Source of the DNA: Bacteroides propionicifaciens DSM 19291 = JCM 14649 | Lineage (GTDB): Bacteria; Bacteroidota; Bacteroidia; Bacteroidales; Bacteroidaceae | Direction: 5' to 3' | Length of the DNA: 64,000 nt | Assembly (NCBI RefSeq): GCF_000375405.1 | Contig: NZ_AQWS01000015.1 | Location: 120-64,119, forward strand | Shown here: one piece after another, positions 25,742 to 31,915 of the stretch | Layout of the letters: each line of letters begins with the position of its first letter | Numbering within the stretch: position 1 is the stretch's first letter | Made by a program: the position numbers and the translations under genes | The notes under the pieces: generated by a model | What the model saw: the letters and a program-made list of their open reading frames with translations, nothing else | The model's database searches: none | What the model was told of the DNA's origin: nothing

Positions 25742-26698
25742 TTAGAGCAAGGTATTGGCTAGTTTACAAACTGCTTTGTTATTTCCCATGGTGTAGTAGT
25801 GAATCAGATTGAAGCCTGCGTCCATTAGCTCTTTTGATTGGGTAATCATCCACTCTGTGCCAATCTCTCTGACTGCCTCTTTTGAGTCAGCCTTCACAAC
25901 CTCATTGGCTAAGTCGAGTGGGATATCCACATGGAAACGTTGTGGAATGATATTGAGTTGACGTTTGGTTGCAAAGGGTTTTAACCCTGGAATTATCGGT
26001 ACCGTGATACCCGCCTTTCGGCATTTATCCACAAAGTCGAAGAATTTCTGATTATCGTAAAAGAGTTGGGTTGTGATGTAGGATGCTCCATTGTCAACCT
26101 TCTCTTTGAGATAGGCAATGTCGGCCTCAAGGTTGGGTGACTCAAAATGTTTCTCTGGATAGCCTGCTACGCCTACGCAGAAATTAGTTTTAGTTTTATT
26201 TTCAAGGGTCTCATCAAGGTAGATTCCTTGATTTTGATTGTTGATTTGCTTTACAAGTTGCGAAGCATATTGGTGTCCCTCTTTCTTTGCATTGAAATAG
26301 ATTTCACTCTTAACTGCATCGCCTCGAAGTGCTACGACATTGTTTATTCCCAAGAAATTAAGATCAATCAATAAGTTTTCGGTTTCCTCTTGTGTAAAAC
26401 CTCCACAAAGTACGTGTGCTACGGTATCAACTTTAAATTTATTCTGAATAGCTGCACAAATCCCTACGGTTCCTGGGCGTTTGCGGATTATCCTTTTTTG
26501 CCAAAGTCCGTTATCTAGCTCTCTATATTCAAACTCCTCCCTATGGTAAGTAACATTAATAAAGGCTGGGTCAAACTCCATAATAGGGTTTAGGGAGTCG
26601 AATATTTCGTTGATATTGGCTCCCTTCAGTGGAGGAAGTATTTCAATAGAGAAAGCTGGTTTCCCGTTGAGTTGTGCTAAGTGCTCTGTAACTGTCAT
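25742..26698 (-). CDS. metF: 5,10-methylenetetrahydrofolate reductase
   Basis: FAD enzyme making 5-methyltetrahydrofolate, the methyl donor for MetH. The 318-residue single-domain form has FSIEILPP near the N-terminus, VALRGD (flavin side) and YITTQLFYD. It is the last gene of metY-metH-metF, 15 bases after metH, so methyl donor and methyl acceptor enzymes are made together. Confidence 0.96.
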   Translation of the reverse strand: MTVTEHLAQLNGKPAFSIEILPPLKGANINEIFDSLNPIMEFDPAFINVTYHREEFEYRELDNGLWQKRIIRKRPGTVGICAAIQNKFKVDTVAHVLCGGFTQEETENLLIDLNFLGINNVVALRGDAVKSEIYFNAKKEGHQYASQLVKQINNQNQGIYLDETLENKTKTNFCVGVAGYPEKHFESPNLEADIAYLKEKVDNGASYITTQLFYDNQKFFDFVDKCRKAGITVPIIPGLKPFATKRQLNIIPQRFHVDIPLDLANEVVKADSKEAVREIGTEWMITQSKELMDAGFNLIHYYTMGNNKAVCKLANTLL

Positions 26699-26713: not shown

Positions 26714-29700
26714 TTATAATAAGGGTTTAAGCCATTGCTTAACCTGGTCAATGTTTTGATTTTTTCTCTCTGCATAGTCTTCCGCCTGATCTAGCCCAAT
26801 TCTTCCAACTGAGAAGTATTTGCTTTGCGGGTGCGAAAAGTAGTATCCCGAAATCGATGAGGCTGGGTACATGGCAAAGCTTGAAGTTATGCGTACTCCA
26901 ATTTTTTGTTCAATCTCCAAAAGTTCCCAAATTGTTTTCTTCTGTTGGTGGTCGGGGCACGCAGGATAACCTGGTGCAGGACGAATGCCTTGATACTCTT
27001 CAGCAATTAGCTGTTGATAACTTAAAGATTCAGGCTCAGCATATCCCCAAGCTTCTTTTCGAACATACCGGTGTAGGTATTCAGCATAAGCCTCTGCCAA
27101 TCGATCGGAAAGTGAACTCAGTAGTAATGCCGTATAGTCGTCTCCCGATTTTTTGAAGCGCTGTACTTTTAAGTCAATACCCAATCCACTCGTTACACAG
27201 AAGAAGCCCATATAATCCGTCTTGCCGTTCTCTTTAGGTGCCACAAAATCGGAAAGGGCATAGTTGGGTAAACCGTTGTTTTTTGCCATTTGCTGACGAA
27301 GCGTATAGATTGTGGTCAACGGTTTTCCATCGGGGGCACATACTTCGATGTCATCGGTTCGAACCTGGTTGGCTCCGAATAATCCGTATATAGCTTTGGG
27401 TTGAAACCACGCTTCTTTTTTAGCTTGCTCTAACAAATCTACTGCGTCGTTGTATAATTGTGATGCTGATTCTCCGACTACTGGATCGGTCAGAATCTCA
27501 GGGAATTTGCCGTAAAGCTCCCAAGCATTAAAGAATGGGCTCCAATCGATATACGGAATGAGTTCACCAATTTCGACCTCTTTTGTATAGACACCCAACT
27601 CTCTAGGCCTAGTAGGTTGATAATTATCCCACTCGATGGCGAGCTTATTAACTCTGGCTTCTTGAATTGATAATAAGCTCTGTGTTTCTCTCTTGTTGAG
27701 GTACTTCTCTTTTGTCTGTTGATAATCGTCTTTTATCGACTGAATATACTCCTGAGAAGTTTCGGGTTGTAGTAAGTTGCTCACAACAGTAACTGCACGT
27801 GAAGCATCTTTGACCTGCACAACTGCCCCACTGTAATGCGGTGCTATCTTTACTGCTGTATGTAGTTTGGTCGTTGTTGCACCACCCACCATTACGGGTA
27901 TCTTACAGTCTATTTTTTCGAGTTCAGATACCACATGAATCATCTCGTCAAGTGAGGGTGTAATGAGTCCACTAAGACCGATAATATCTACTTTTTCACG
28001 AATGGCTGTTTCAATTATTTTTTCGGCAGGTACCATTACCCCTAAATCAATAATTTCGTAATTATTGCAAGCCAATACTACCGATACAATATTTTTACCT
28101 ATATCGTGAACATCTCCTTTGACTGTAGCTAGTAATATCTTTGGAGAACTGCTGGATTTTTTAGTTGTTTTAGTCGATTCAATATAGGGTAGAAGATAGG
28201 CTACTGCCTGTTTCATTACACGTGCAGACTTCACTACTTGAGGAAGGAACATTTTACCTTCGCCAAATAAATTGCCGACAATACCCATGGCATGCATTAG
28301 ATTAACCTCTATTACCTCTATGGGGTGATTTGCTGTCAATCGTGCCTCTTCAATGTCTTCTTCAATATGTGTGGAAACTCCCTTAACCAGTGCATAATCA
28401 AGTCGACTTTGTAGGTCAGTGGTTCTCCACTGCTCAATAACTTGAGCGTGCTCTTCTTTTATGTCTTTAATGCTATCTGCAAACTCTAATAGTTTCCCCG
28501 TAGCATCGTCGGTTCGATCGAAAAGTACATCTTCAATTCGGGTTAAAAGTTCTGGCTCAATTTCATCGTAAACCGTCAGTAAACTTGGATTAACAATTCC
28601 CATGCTTAAGCCGTGTTTGATTCCGTGATACAGAAAAGCTGAATGCATCGCTTCACGAATGGGGTTATTGCCTCTAAATGAAAACGATACATTGCTGATG
28701 CCACCACTAATATTAGCTAGCGGAAGGTTCTCTTTAATCCATTTTGAGCCTAAGAAGAAATCGAGTGCATTTCGACGATGTTCCTCCATTCCTGTTGCTA
28801 CAGGAAATACATTGGGGTCGAAGATGATATCTTGTGCTGGGAAACCTACTTGTTCGGTTAGTATATTATACGAACGACTACAGATTTCGATACGTCGCTC
28901 CAAATTATCGGCTTGTCCATTTTCATCAAATGCCATTACAATAACTGCTGCACCATATCTCTTGATTAATTTGGCATGGTGGATAAACTCGGCTTCTCCC
29001 GATTTTAAACTGATTGAGTTGACAACACCTTTACCCTGCAGGCATTGCAGTCCTGCTTCGATAACCTCCCATTTAGAACTGTCAATCATAATGGGAACTT
29101 TGGCTATTTCGGGTTCAGAGGCAATTAGGTTTAAGAAGGTTTTCATCTCTTGGGTACCGTCGAGTAACCCCTCATCCATATTGATATCAATGATTTGAGC
29201 ACCTCCTTCAACTTGCTCTCTGGCTATAGCTAGAGCCTGTTCATAACTTTGCTCTTTGATGAGTCTTAAAAACTTCTTTGAGCCTGTTACGTTGGTGCGT
29301 TCACCCACGTTGACAAAGGCAATATTCTCGTTGTACTTGAAAGGTTCTAAACCAGAAAGCTCCAAAACCCGAGGTTTTGTTTTTTCTATGTAAGTCGACT
29401 TTGTTTGGTCTGCTTGACTTGCTAACTCACTTATTACTCGGATATGATCGGGAGTAGTTCCACAACATCCACCCACAATCCGTATCGCAGGGTTTTGTAG
29501 TAACGACTGAATTTCCTGACCCATGATTTGTGGGGTTTGATCGTAGTAGCCAAACTCGTTGGGTAATCCCGCATTTGGGTGGATAGAGATGGGATAGGGG
29601 CTAACTCGTTCTAGCTCTAAGGCATAGGTTTTGAGTTGCTTTGCTCCCCATCCACAATTTAACCCAATGCTTAACAGAGGAGTATGTGAGATTGAAGTTA

Positions 29701-30400
29701 TAAAAGCTTCTAGGGTTTGTCCCGATAGAATACGCCCCGAAGCATCGGTGATCGTACCCGAAACCATAATCGGAATTTGAAGATTCCACTCTTGGCTCAA
29801 TTGATCGATTGCAAAGAGTGCAGCTTTAGCGTTTAGTGTATCGAAGATGGTTTCGATCATTAGCAAGTCGGCACCTCCTTTTATGAGTGCTTCTGCTTGC
29901 TGCTTATATGCAGTTCGTAGTTCTTCAAAACTAATCGCACGATAACCTGGACGATTAACGTCGGGCGAAAGACTCGCTGTTTTATTGGTCGGACCTAGTA
30001 CTCCTGCTACAAATCGAGGTTTGTCTGGTGTTAAAGCACTAAATTTTTTAGCAGCTTTTTTGGCCAGTTGTGCCGATTGGAAATTAAGTTTCTCAACCTC
30101 TTGGCTTAAACCATAATCAGCTTGAGCTATTGTGGTCGAAGAGAACGTATTTGTTTCAATAATATCGGCACCAGCTTCCAAATAAGCTTCATGAATTTGA
30201 GTAATGATGTCGGGACGTGTAAGTGAAAGAACGTCATAATTACCCTTTAGTAGGATTTTAGAGTCGGCAAATAGCTCGCCTCTAAAATCCTGCTCAACTA
30301 GGTTATGGGCTTGAATCATTGTCCCCATAGCTCCGTCGAGTACTAGTGTTTTGTTTTGGATTAACTCCCTTAGTAGTGTATAGTTTTCAGATGGAATCAT
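26714..30400 (-). CDS. metH: Cobalamin-dependent methionine synthase
   Basis: B12-dependent enzyme that moves a methyl group from 5-methyltetrahydrofolate to homocysteine. All four modules are present in 1228 residues: homocysteine domain with zinc motif GGCCGTTP (310-317), pterin domain (about 355-620), cobalamin domain with D763-V-H765-D-I-G-K769 whose His replaces the lower B12 ligand, and the SAM-dependent activation domain ending in the [12 protein letters not shown] and [13 protein letters not shown] blocks. It is 3 bases after metY. No cobalamin riboswitch precedes the operon; control seems to come from the metY leader. Confidence 0.97.
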
Positions 30401-30403
30401 AGT

Positions 30404-31678
30404 TTATAATGTATAGAAGACTGTTCTTAAGTCGTTTTTTAAGTCCCCAATGTTTTCTAGTCCCACAGAAAGACGAATCAAATCGGGCGTTACACCTGTT
30501 GATAACTGCTCCTGCGGTGATAGCTGTTCATGAGTGGTTGAGGCTGGATGAATTATCAACGATTTCGAGTCTCCAATATTGGCCAATAGAGCAAACAATT
30601 TGGTTGAGCCTACTACTTTTTTTGCGGCATCGTATCCACCTTTTAGTCCGAAGGTTACTACACCACTTTGTCCGTTGGGTAGGTATTTTTGTGCCAACTC
30701 ATAATAGGCATTGCCCTCTAGCCCCGGATAGTTTACCCAAGCCACTTCGGGTTGTTCTTGCAACCACTTAGCTAGTAATAAAGCATTTTGAGAATGTTTC
30801 TCTATACGTAGGGGTAATGTTTCAAGTCCTTGTATGATTTGGAATGCATTGAATGGGCTGAGTGCTGCACCCAAATCTCTAAGTCCTTCGATACGGATTT
30901 TTGCAATAAAGGCTGCATTACCAAGTGCCTCATGATAAACTAATCCATGATAACCAGCAGAAGGTGTGGTGAATTCGGGGAATTTACCATTGCCCCAGTT
31001 GTAAGTTCCTGCATCGATGATTGCTCCACCTAGTGAAGTTCCGTTGCCCGAAATATATTTTGTAAGCGAGTGGATAACAATATTTGCTCCGTAAGTGATA
31101 GGGTTGAGTAAGAATGGAGTTGCTACGGTGTTATCGACAATAAAAGGAATATCGGCTTCGTTCGAAATTCGTCCAATCTCTTCGAGTTCTACTACGTCTA
31201 GTTTAGGGTTACCCAAGCTCTCCACAAAAATAGCACGTGTGTTAGGTTGAATTGCATTTTTGAAGTTCTGAGGATCTTTCGGGTCAACAAAAGTTGTTTC
31301 GATATTAAATCGTCTTAAGGTGACATTGAGTAGGTTGTATGTACCCCCGTATAAGCTGTTCGAAGAGATAATATGGTCACCTGGTTTGAGTAGAGTTAAC
31401 AGTGTGGTAGAGATAGCCGAAGCTCCAGATGCTGTAACTACTGCTCCAATTCCACCTTCGAGTGCTGCTAAACGTTGTTCTAATACATCGTTGGTTGGGT
31501 TGTTAAGACGTGTGTAGATGTAGGTCGGGATTGAAAGATTAAAAGCACCAGCAGCGTGATCAGCATCGTTGAACACGTACGAAGTAGTTTGATAAATTGG
31601 CACAGCTTGGCTTCCTTGTGTGTTTTTACTGTCGTGACCTTGGTGTAATGCTTTGGTTTCAAAATTTAAATTGCTCAT
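30404..31678 (-). CDS. metY: O-acetylhomoserine sulfhydrylase / aminocarboxypropyltransferase
   Basis: PLP enzyme of the Cys/Met metabolism family that makes homocysteine from O-acetylhomoserine and sulfide. The 424-residue length and the ALEGGIGAVVTASGASA and SLGNPKLDVVE blocks fit MetY; the PLP lysine is in SLTKYISG followed by NGTSLGG. It is the first structural gene of metY-metH-metF, which together run from homoserine ester to methionine. The start at 31678 lies 36 bases after the attenuator T-run. Cystathionine gamma-synthase is the alternative in this family, but the length and the HGTSLGG-like block favour MetY. Confidence 0.94.
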   Translation of the reverse strand: MSNLNFETKALHQGHDSKNTQGSQAVPIYQTTSYVFNDADHAAGAFNLSIPTYIYTRLNNPTNDVLEQRLAALEGGIGAVVTASGASAISTTLLTLLKPGDHIISSNSLYGGTYNLLNVTLRRFNIETTFVDPKDPQNFKNAIQPNTRAIFVESLGNPKLDVVELEEIGRISNEADIPFIVDNTVATPFLLNPITYGANIVIHSLTKYISGNGTSLGGAIIDAGTYNWGNGKFPEFTTPSAGYHGLVYHEALGNAAFIAKIRIEGLRDLGAALSPFNAFQIIQGLETLPLRIEKHSQNALLLAKWLQEQPEVAWVNYPGLEGNAYYELAQKYLPNGQSGVVTFGLKGGYDAAKKVVGSTKLFALLANIGDSKSLIIHPASTTHEQLSPQEQLSTGVTPDLIRLSVGLENIGDLKNDLRTVFYTL

Positions 31679-31713: not shown

Positions 31714-31748
31714 AAAAAAAGGAGCCCTTGCTTTCGCAAGAACTCCTT
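31714..31748 (-). terminator. Intrinsic terminator (attenuator) in the met leader
   Basis: On the minus strand: AAGGAGTTCTTGC, GAAA loop, GCAAGGGCTCCTT, then seven further T residues. The stem is 13 bp with two U-G pairs, located between the leader peptide stop (25 bases upstream) and the metY start (36 bases downstream). A terminator placed inside the promoter-to-gene leader is the hallmark of attenuation. Confidence 0.85.
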
Positions 31749-31843
31749 AATCCGTATCTTAAATTTATTTCTGTCAGTTATTTAAGTTTGGGGAATAGGC
31801 AAGCCTTGCGAAGAGTAATCTCCACATCATCATGATAGCTTGC
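31733..31843 (-). promoter_or_regulatory. Alternative RNA pairings of the met attenuator
   Basis: Three mutually exclusive pairings can be read. Segment 1 (31837-31843, GCAAGCT over codons 8-10) pairs with segment 2 (31799-31805, GGCTTGC) over 7 bp. Segment 2's 5' side (31804-31812, TTCGCAAGG) instead pairs with the terminator's 5' arm (31733-31741, TCTTGCGAA) over 9 bp, forming an antiterminator. The terminator is the third. A ribosome stalled at Met codons 8-14 would cover segment 1 and free segment 2 for antitermination. Pairings were found by eye; energies were not computed. Confidence 0.65.
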
Positions 31844-31866
31844 ATATTTTGGTTCTTAAATCCCAT
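31774..31866 (-). CDS. Methionine-rich leader peptide of the metY-metH-metF operon
   Basis: A 30-codon frame too short for ordinary gene finding. Its first 14 codons contain five Met codons: positions 1, 8 and an uninterrupted trio at 12-14, followed by Trp-Arg-Leu-Leu. It ends with TGA 25 bases before the intrinsic terminator and lies on the same strand as metY. The excess of codons for the product amino acid of the downstream operon, exactly where a ribosome stall would matter, is the evidence that it is translated. Translation itself is not shown; the ATG has only an A-rich upstream region, normal for Bacteroidota. Confidence 0.72.
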   Translation of the reverse strand: MGFKNQNMQAIMMMWRLLFARLAYSPNLNN

Positions 31867-31887: not shown

Positions 31888-31915
31888 CAATATAAGGCTT
31901 ATTTTTTAAAAACAA
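31888..31915 (-). promoter_or_regulatory. Possible promoter of the met leader
   Basis: On the minus strand: TTG (31913-31915), 18 bases, then TATATTG (31888-31894), one T short of TAnnTTTG. It would start RNA about 15 bases before the leader peptide ATG. Read-through from the Pmp3-like gene upstream is the alternative. Confidence 0.4.

Follow-up and report, generated by a model that had tools for sequence, protein, structure and literature searches.

The window analyzed here, a stretch of 64,000 nucleotides from Bacteroides propionicifaciens DSM 19291, carries on its minus strand the methionine genes metY, metH and metF, whose identity and order after the leader, first read from the bare sequence, were confirmed with NCBIfam models. 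Upstream of metY lie a putative leader peptide ORF, an intrinsic terminator and several segments that can pair in alternative ways (Table 1), a region that the original prediction took for a complete ribosome-mediated attenuator. Rereading of the sequence with scripted coordinates placed the proposed 30-codon frame to the base and found Met at codons 1, 8, 12, 13 and 14, as had been claimed, as well as the predicted GAAA-loop terminator with its T-run, 25 nt past the leader stop. The terminator stem, AAGGAGTTCTTGC-GAAA-GCAAGGGCTCCTT, has 13 pairs followed by the T-run, and it is the single terminator-like site between positions 31600 and 32250, where 0.4 would be expected. With just five Met codons including the start, the leader has fewer than those of most relatives, which we counted against an attenuator.

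Table 1. Features of the metY leader and operon in the window, in window coordinates.
Feature	Position	Strand	Remarks
Promoter-like region upstream of leader	31888..31915	-	TTG (31915-31913), 18 nt, TATATTG (31894-31888); weak
Leader peptide ORF	31774..31866	-	ATG at 31866, TGA at 31776-31774; 30 codons plus stop; encodes MGFKNQNMQAIMMMWRLLFARLAYSPNLNN; putative translation
Additional Met codon 8	31845-31843	-	Position from coordinate check
Segment 1, anti-antiterminator arm	31837..31843	-	GCAAGCT; partner 31799-31805
Control codons 12-14 (Met run)	31825..31833	-	ATGATGATG; predicted switch in masked folding right after the run
Segment 2, antiterminator 5′ arm	31804..31812	-	TTCGCAAGG; begins 12 nt past the Met run; partner 31733-31741
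Segment 2b	31799..31805	-	GGCTTGC; partner of segment 1
Segment 3, terminator 5′ arm and antiterminator 3′ arm	31733..31741	-	TCTTGCGAA
Intrinsic terminator	31714..31748	-	Hairpin 31748-31719 with GAAA loop; T tract 31718-31714; stem energy -20.0 kcal/mol
metY, O-acetylhomoserine sulfhydrylase	30404..31678	-	First structural gene; NCBIfam TIGR01326, above cutoff
metH, cobalamin-dependent methionine synthase	26714..30400	-	NCBIfam NF007024/TIGR02082
metF, methylenetetrahydrofolate reductase	25742..26698	-	NCBIfam TIGR00676

The promoter-like region resembles the TTG / TAnnTTTG promoter of the Bacteroidota inexactly, and the aligned region of G001, the only other genome in the genus that carries this operon, reads TATATTTA. 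An exact TAnnTTTG motif was absent from the 90 nt upstream of the leader in both genomes, which for the window we counted against an attenuator; of 30 leaders, 9 have the motif that close upstream, where shuffles average 2.6 and reach 8 at most. The Bacteroidota -7 motif, which between the terminator and metY would point to a metY start past the terminator and would thus speak against attenuation, was found in that interval in 0 of 30 loci. An Rfam scan of the leader region of the window detected no SAM riboswitch, T-box or leader family, its only match being a tRNA gene 2.6 kb away, and a SAM-I model run on the window gave no match. All 64 exact ATGATGATG sites of the genome were read, and no other Met-run ORF preceded a terminator; the metY paralogue on contig 8 had no Met-run leader upstream in a search by this exact 9-mer.

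Three mutually exclusive pairings had been proposed, of segment 1 with segment 2 (1:2), of segment 2 with the terminator 5′ arm (2:3) and of the terminator itself, and all of them are present in the window. Against dinucleotide shuffles, 2:3 gave p=0.010 and 1:2 gave p=0.06. The two parts of segment 2 have just 2 nt in common (31805-31804), and the mutual exclusion of 1:2 and 2:3 is therefore a matter of the edge and of steric hindrance, not of each base being shared. In G001, a leader (L003, MGYKLSNMQAMMMFMWSSYFAKLAYTHNLTD) and a terminator stand in the same place. The frame is kept relative to the window, with an in-frame 3-nt insertion inside the Met run, and so are the Met run and all pairing arms, whereas the spacer from the stop to the terminator diverges. 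The arm common to the antiterminator and the terminator has a C-to-T change in G001, matched by G-to-A changes both in segment 2 and in the terminator 3′ arm, and this amounts to a triple compensatory change; the segment 1 pairing is kept, with U-G replaced by U-A. The alignment with a relative has the conserved Met codons and terminator and the compensatory changes that the original prediction called for, the covariation of the window resting on one comparison because the exact leader was found in only two genomes.

Relatives were collected as MetY orthologues with the MetY protein of the window, and the DNA upstream of 151 Bacteroidota metY genes was searched for ORFs with at least four Met or Cys among eight codons, using the antisense strand and 10 shuffles as controls. 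There were 61 such ORFs on the sense strand, compared with 1 on the antisense strand and approximately 1.2 in shuffles; modules combining a leader and a terminator numbered 43, compared with none on the antisense strand and an average of 0 in shuffles. When ORFs were picked solely by a following terminator, Met was enriched 9.6-fold and Cys 3.7-fold over the shuffled background, and every other residue at most 1.14-fold. Many of the leaders combine Met with Cys codons, and both TGT (126 occurrences) and TGC (91) are in use, indicating that the amino acid recurs and not a nucleotide repeat. Distant Bacteroidota have the same device with other sequences, such as MRFINNNTNSMMMGMMQMMMHIMLLYYPD (L004), MRQFSENMMMSMMMAMFMMMWRGKLLRKD (L056, Puteibacter) and MTLVMTPIKFESKQIKRQMMMMHMMMMRYQHRYCHDRENRS (L061); that of L149 is MKTIAKRNMMCCKMMQMCIPHCCCQK, and the MetY of this genome, which has family code f22, clusters with named Flavobacteriaceae in the tree. 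About half of the 30 terminator-bearing loci have tandem attenuators, each with its own terminator, and the window has one module. Across families, the leaders have Met/Cys content in common and no sequence motif, N-terminal sequence being shared within one genus. Purifying selection on the peptide was sought in nine flavobacterial leaders and not found (pN/pS, 0.94), only the Met/Cys content being kept. A ratio of about 1 would be expected of a codon counter, yet it is not classical coding conservation.

The flanks of all the collected loci contained a handful of extra modules, including overlooked upstream members of tandem metY pairs. In a flavobacterial MAG (L039:675-746, plus strand), a Cys-rich leader, MRFTCCSACTCMGILSTEERYYI, and a terminator precede a serine acetyltransferase gene (Pfam SATase_N, Hexapep), an arrangement resembling an attenuator by which cysteine would control its own synthesis. 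Two more Met/Cys-rich leaders with terminators were found on the minus strand of L156, approximately 500 to 740 bases from its low end, before a gene for an EamA-family transporter, possibly a sulfur amino-acid exporter. At L149, L145 and L142, a small ORF of approximately 60 codons (e.g., MRTLNSIAVEYLLRNDSQQNNHTSEEV...) lies between the attenuator and metY.

SAM-I riboswitches were called with Rfam and with a model made from 22 local SAM-I sequences. Where metY is not preceded by a Met leader, the corresponding interval usually contains a SAM-I riboswitch. Of the 69 loci whose MetY is at least 58% identical to that of the window, 39 have SAM-I only and 27 a leader only, with none having both and 3 having neither, and a quick MetY tree, whose branches are to be taken with care, gives at least three changes between the two states. 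Elsewhere in the phylum, SAM-I and a leader occur together at 11 loci, the leader there being mainly Cys; the mean Met fraction of leaders was 0.28 with SAM-I versus 0.63 without it (p=8e-5, for loci that are not independent). On the simplest reading, methionine would be sensed either by Met codons or by the SAM aptamer, with Cys codons adding a second input. The window leader is very probably an RNA switch read by the ribosome, and its device recurs across the Bacteroidota in place of the usual SAM riboswitch.

At L098, L108, L201, L209, L228 and L230, SAM-I is followed by a Cys-rich leader, and no T-run terminator was detected before metY; these leaders may act translationally or through Rho. 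At L033, L041, L050 and L065, a SAM-II riboswitch lies on the minus strand approximately 400 to 500 bases upstream of metY, in the direction opposite to that of metY's SAM-I, and thus transcription units that diverge from each other seem to rely on different classes of SAM riboswitch.

In 34 of the 43 modules, the stretch between the Met/Cys run and the terminator contains an arm that complements the terminator 5′ arm better than shuffles do (p<=0.05). Some of the failures are script artifacts, as for L060, where the run was extended beyond the arm and GCTATTGCCAG / CTGGTAATAGC are visible by eye. The arm starts 10 to 17 nt past the last Met/Cys control codon in most modules, and 12 nt past it in the window, which is close to the point that the front of a stalled ribosome would reach, given the size of its footprint. 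Arms were matched to their terminators: in 27 distinct representatives, own arms scored 18.3 versus 12.5 for swapped ones (permutation p=5e-5, kinship among loci being ignored), and at tandem loci, most leader arms fit their own terminator better than the neighbor's.

We folded the transcript as it would stand at the emergence of the terminator 5′ arm, masking a ribosome footprint of chosen size, an approach that describes equilibrium and not kinetics. In the window, the predicted antiterminator pairing was 12.9 positions with the A site at codons 12 to 14; it fell to 11.1 at codon 15 and to 3.7 at codon 16, reaching 1.4 with the ribosome at the stop. The antiterminator was favored with the ribosome at codons 5 to 15 and the terminator from codon 16 onward. 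In 42 of the 43 modules and with all three footprint sizes, the antiterminator dominated while the ribosome was at the Met run but no longer did so once it was at the stop. Shuffled spacers lost this stall-over-stop difference, and the switch of the window was equaled by 2 of 200 shuffles. In the model, a stall at the Met run thus leaves segment 2 free, as originally predicted, and finished translation does not.

The part of the three-pairing scheme that did not extend to the relatives is 1:2, which reached p<=0.05 in just 6 of the 43 modules and which we rejected as a general design feature. In the window and in G001, this pairing is supported and is effective in the model. With the ribosome at the stop, masking segment 1 raised the predicted antiterminator pairing from 1.4 to 5.9 in the window and from 2.1 to 13.0 in G001; without a ribosome, the window rose from 3.5 to 12.4 and G001 from 3.0 to 12.2. 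The leader stop lies about 30 nt past segment 2 in these two genomes and within about 15 nt of it in most relatives, where a ribosome at the stop codon itself appears to occlude segment 2. It is likely because the finishing ribosome covers segment 2 from a nearby stop that 1:2 is not conserved elsewhere. The same differences in distance and in 1:2 would account for the states predicted for the untranslated leader, mostly ON in the relatives (median of 8.6 paired antiterminator positions versus 1.6 with the ribosome at the stop) and leaning toward termination in the window and G001.

These observations are by far best explained by ribosome-mediated attenuation of transcription, with Met as the control codons of the window leader, a reading to which we give a probability of roughly 0.88. 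The locus has a putative ORF whose control codons specify the amino acid that the pathway makes, an intrinsic terminator before the first gene and an antiterminator that excludes it, and in the model, segment 2 is free under stall and not after completed translation. The parts, their spacing, their recurrence across the phylum, the covariation and the alternation with SAM-I, all established by sequence and comparison, strongly support together with masked folding the attenuation of the trp/his type initially proposed, and from them we infer stalling, transcription-translation coupling and a response to methionine in the cell. RNA polymerase would transcribe the leader as the ribosome translates it. 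When charged elongator tRNA-Met is scarce, the ribosome would stall at codons 8 to 14, with its leading edge not quite reaching segment 2, which begins 12 nt past the Met run; the free segment 2 would pair with the emerging terminator 5′ arm, the terminator would not form, and metY-metH-metF would be transcribed. When methionine is plentiful, the ribosome would pass the Met run and cover or unwind segment 2; once it has finished, segment 1 would hold segment 2, the terminator would form, and transcription would end before metY.

An identical RNA geometry would serve a nascent-peptide sensor, in which the leader stalls in the ribosome on binding methionine or SAM and the stall sets the RNA structure, and the N-terminal sequence shared by leaders within one genus would fit such a sensor. 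TnaC provides a precedent for nascent-peptide stalling, with tryptophan; however, arrest peptides require conserved sequence, and the lack of a cross-family motif, the interchange of Met and Cys and the pN/pS near 1 make this mechanism very unlikely here, as does its sign, since arrest at high methionine would have the wrong effect. We consider it less probable still that the terminator is the expression platform of an undescribed SAM- or methionine-binding riboswitch and the Met-rich frame incidental. Although SAM-I occupies the same position before orthologous genes, neither Rfam nor the SAM-I model gave a riboswitch match in the window, leaders of different families have no aptamer-like sequence in common, and between G001 and the window it is the spacer that diverges, the frame, control codons and pairing arms being kept.

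Lone terminators are common between genes, and the site might be a plain terminator or a small-RNA gene between transcription units, next to an unregulated short ORF. Its location after the leader and before metY, the lack of a promoter motif past it in all 30 loci, the conservation of the antiterminator and the 9.6-fold Met enrichment of unselected ORFs before these terminators leave this explanation hardly any weight. Equally little credence goes to the same attenuator sensing initiation, by which low formyl-Met-tRNA would reduce leader translation and the untranslated leader would read through. The antiterminator predicted for the untranslated leader in most relatives (8.6 versus 1.6) agrees with that idea, but the untranslated leaders of the window and G001 lean to termination (3.5 and 3.0), and the Met run would be needless.

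The methionine attenuator might be one element of a modular sulfur-amino-acid leader code in the Bacteroidota, a proposal for which we see the odds as even. The Met-codon attenuator and the SAM-I aptamer would be interchangeable methionine sensors at one promoter-proximal site, Cys codons would provide a second input, and modules would be stacked in tandem; the untranslated leader would be ON in most relatives, and hence failed Met-dependent initiation and Met-codon stalling would push the same way.

Textbook amino-acid attenuators are those of trp, his, phe, leu, ilv and thr, to which Cys was a later addition, and methionine biosynthesis is usually described as controlled by SAM riboswitches, T-boxes or MetJ. 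The device proposed here resembles the trp, his and phe leaders of Enterobacteria in its short ORF with pathway-amino-acid control codons, its exclusive antiterminator and terminator and, in the window, its 1:2 pairing. Unlike them, it has Met or Met plus Cys control codons, is found in Bacteroidota and is often tandem, and most relatives are without a conserved 1:2 hairpin, their untranslated leader being predicted ON. It shares runs of sulfur amino-acid codons with the Cys-codon leaders of actinobacterial cys operons (PMC1262725) and with the uORFC-8-2 motif before cysS in Rhodobacterales (PMC8632094), which have Cys only and precede other genes. Ribosome stalling and an intrinsic terminator have been proposed for uORFC-8-2 (PMC8632094); for the actinobacteria, the cys leaders were found to have no terminators, and methionine operons are explicitly described as having no RNA regulatory structures upstream (PMC1262725).

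The SAM-I riboswitch (S box, RF00162) controls orthologous metY from the same position in sister lineages; it differs in that its aptamer senses SAM, and at loci with closely related MetY it never occurs together with the Met leader. In Staphylococcus aureus, a T-box specific for initiator tRNA precedes met genes (PMC3771891), and Xanthomonas has a SAM-I riboswitch with tRNA sensing (PMC7270179). Both likewise make met genes answer to tRNA-Met charging and not to SAM alone; as summarized in these sources, the RNA binds tRNA directly, without a leader peptide. In the same phylum, the transcriptome of Flavobacterium psychrophilum provided strong clues for leader-peptide attenuation before amino-acid operons, the main text of that report naming no amino acid and leaving methionine unmentioned (PMC9723704). 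No earlier Met-codon attenuator was found in the open-access literature, with subscription papers and supplements lying outside that search and priority not being certain. A Met-codon attenuator that alternates with SAM-I before one gene would make it possible to ask why SAM is sensed in some lineages and charged tRNA-Met in others. It would imply transcription-translation coupling tight enough for attenuation in Bacteroidota, and it would be a ready reporter for tRNA-Met charging.

The MetY of the window is 66 to 77% identical to those of some Flavobacteriaceae and of scattered genomes of the window's order, and just approximately 44 to 51% identical to MetY matches from other genera of its own family. 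This pattern suggests that metY was transferred horizontally, perhaps along with its attenuator.
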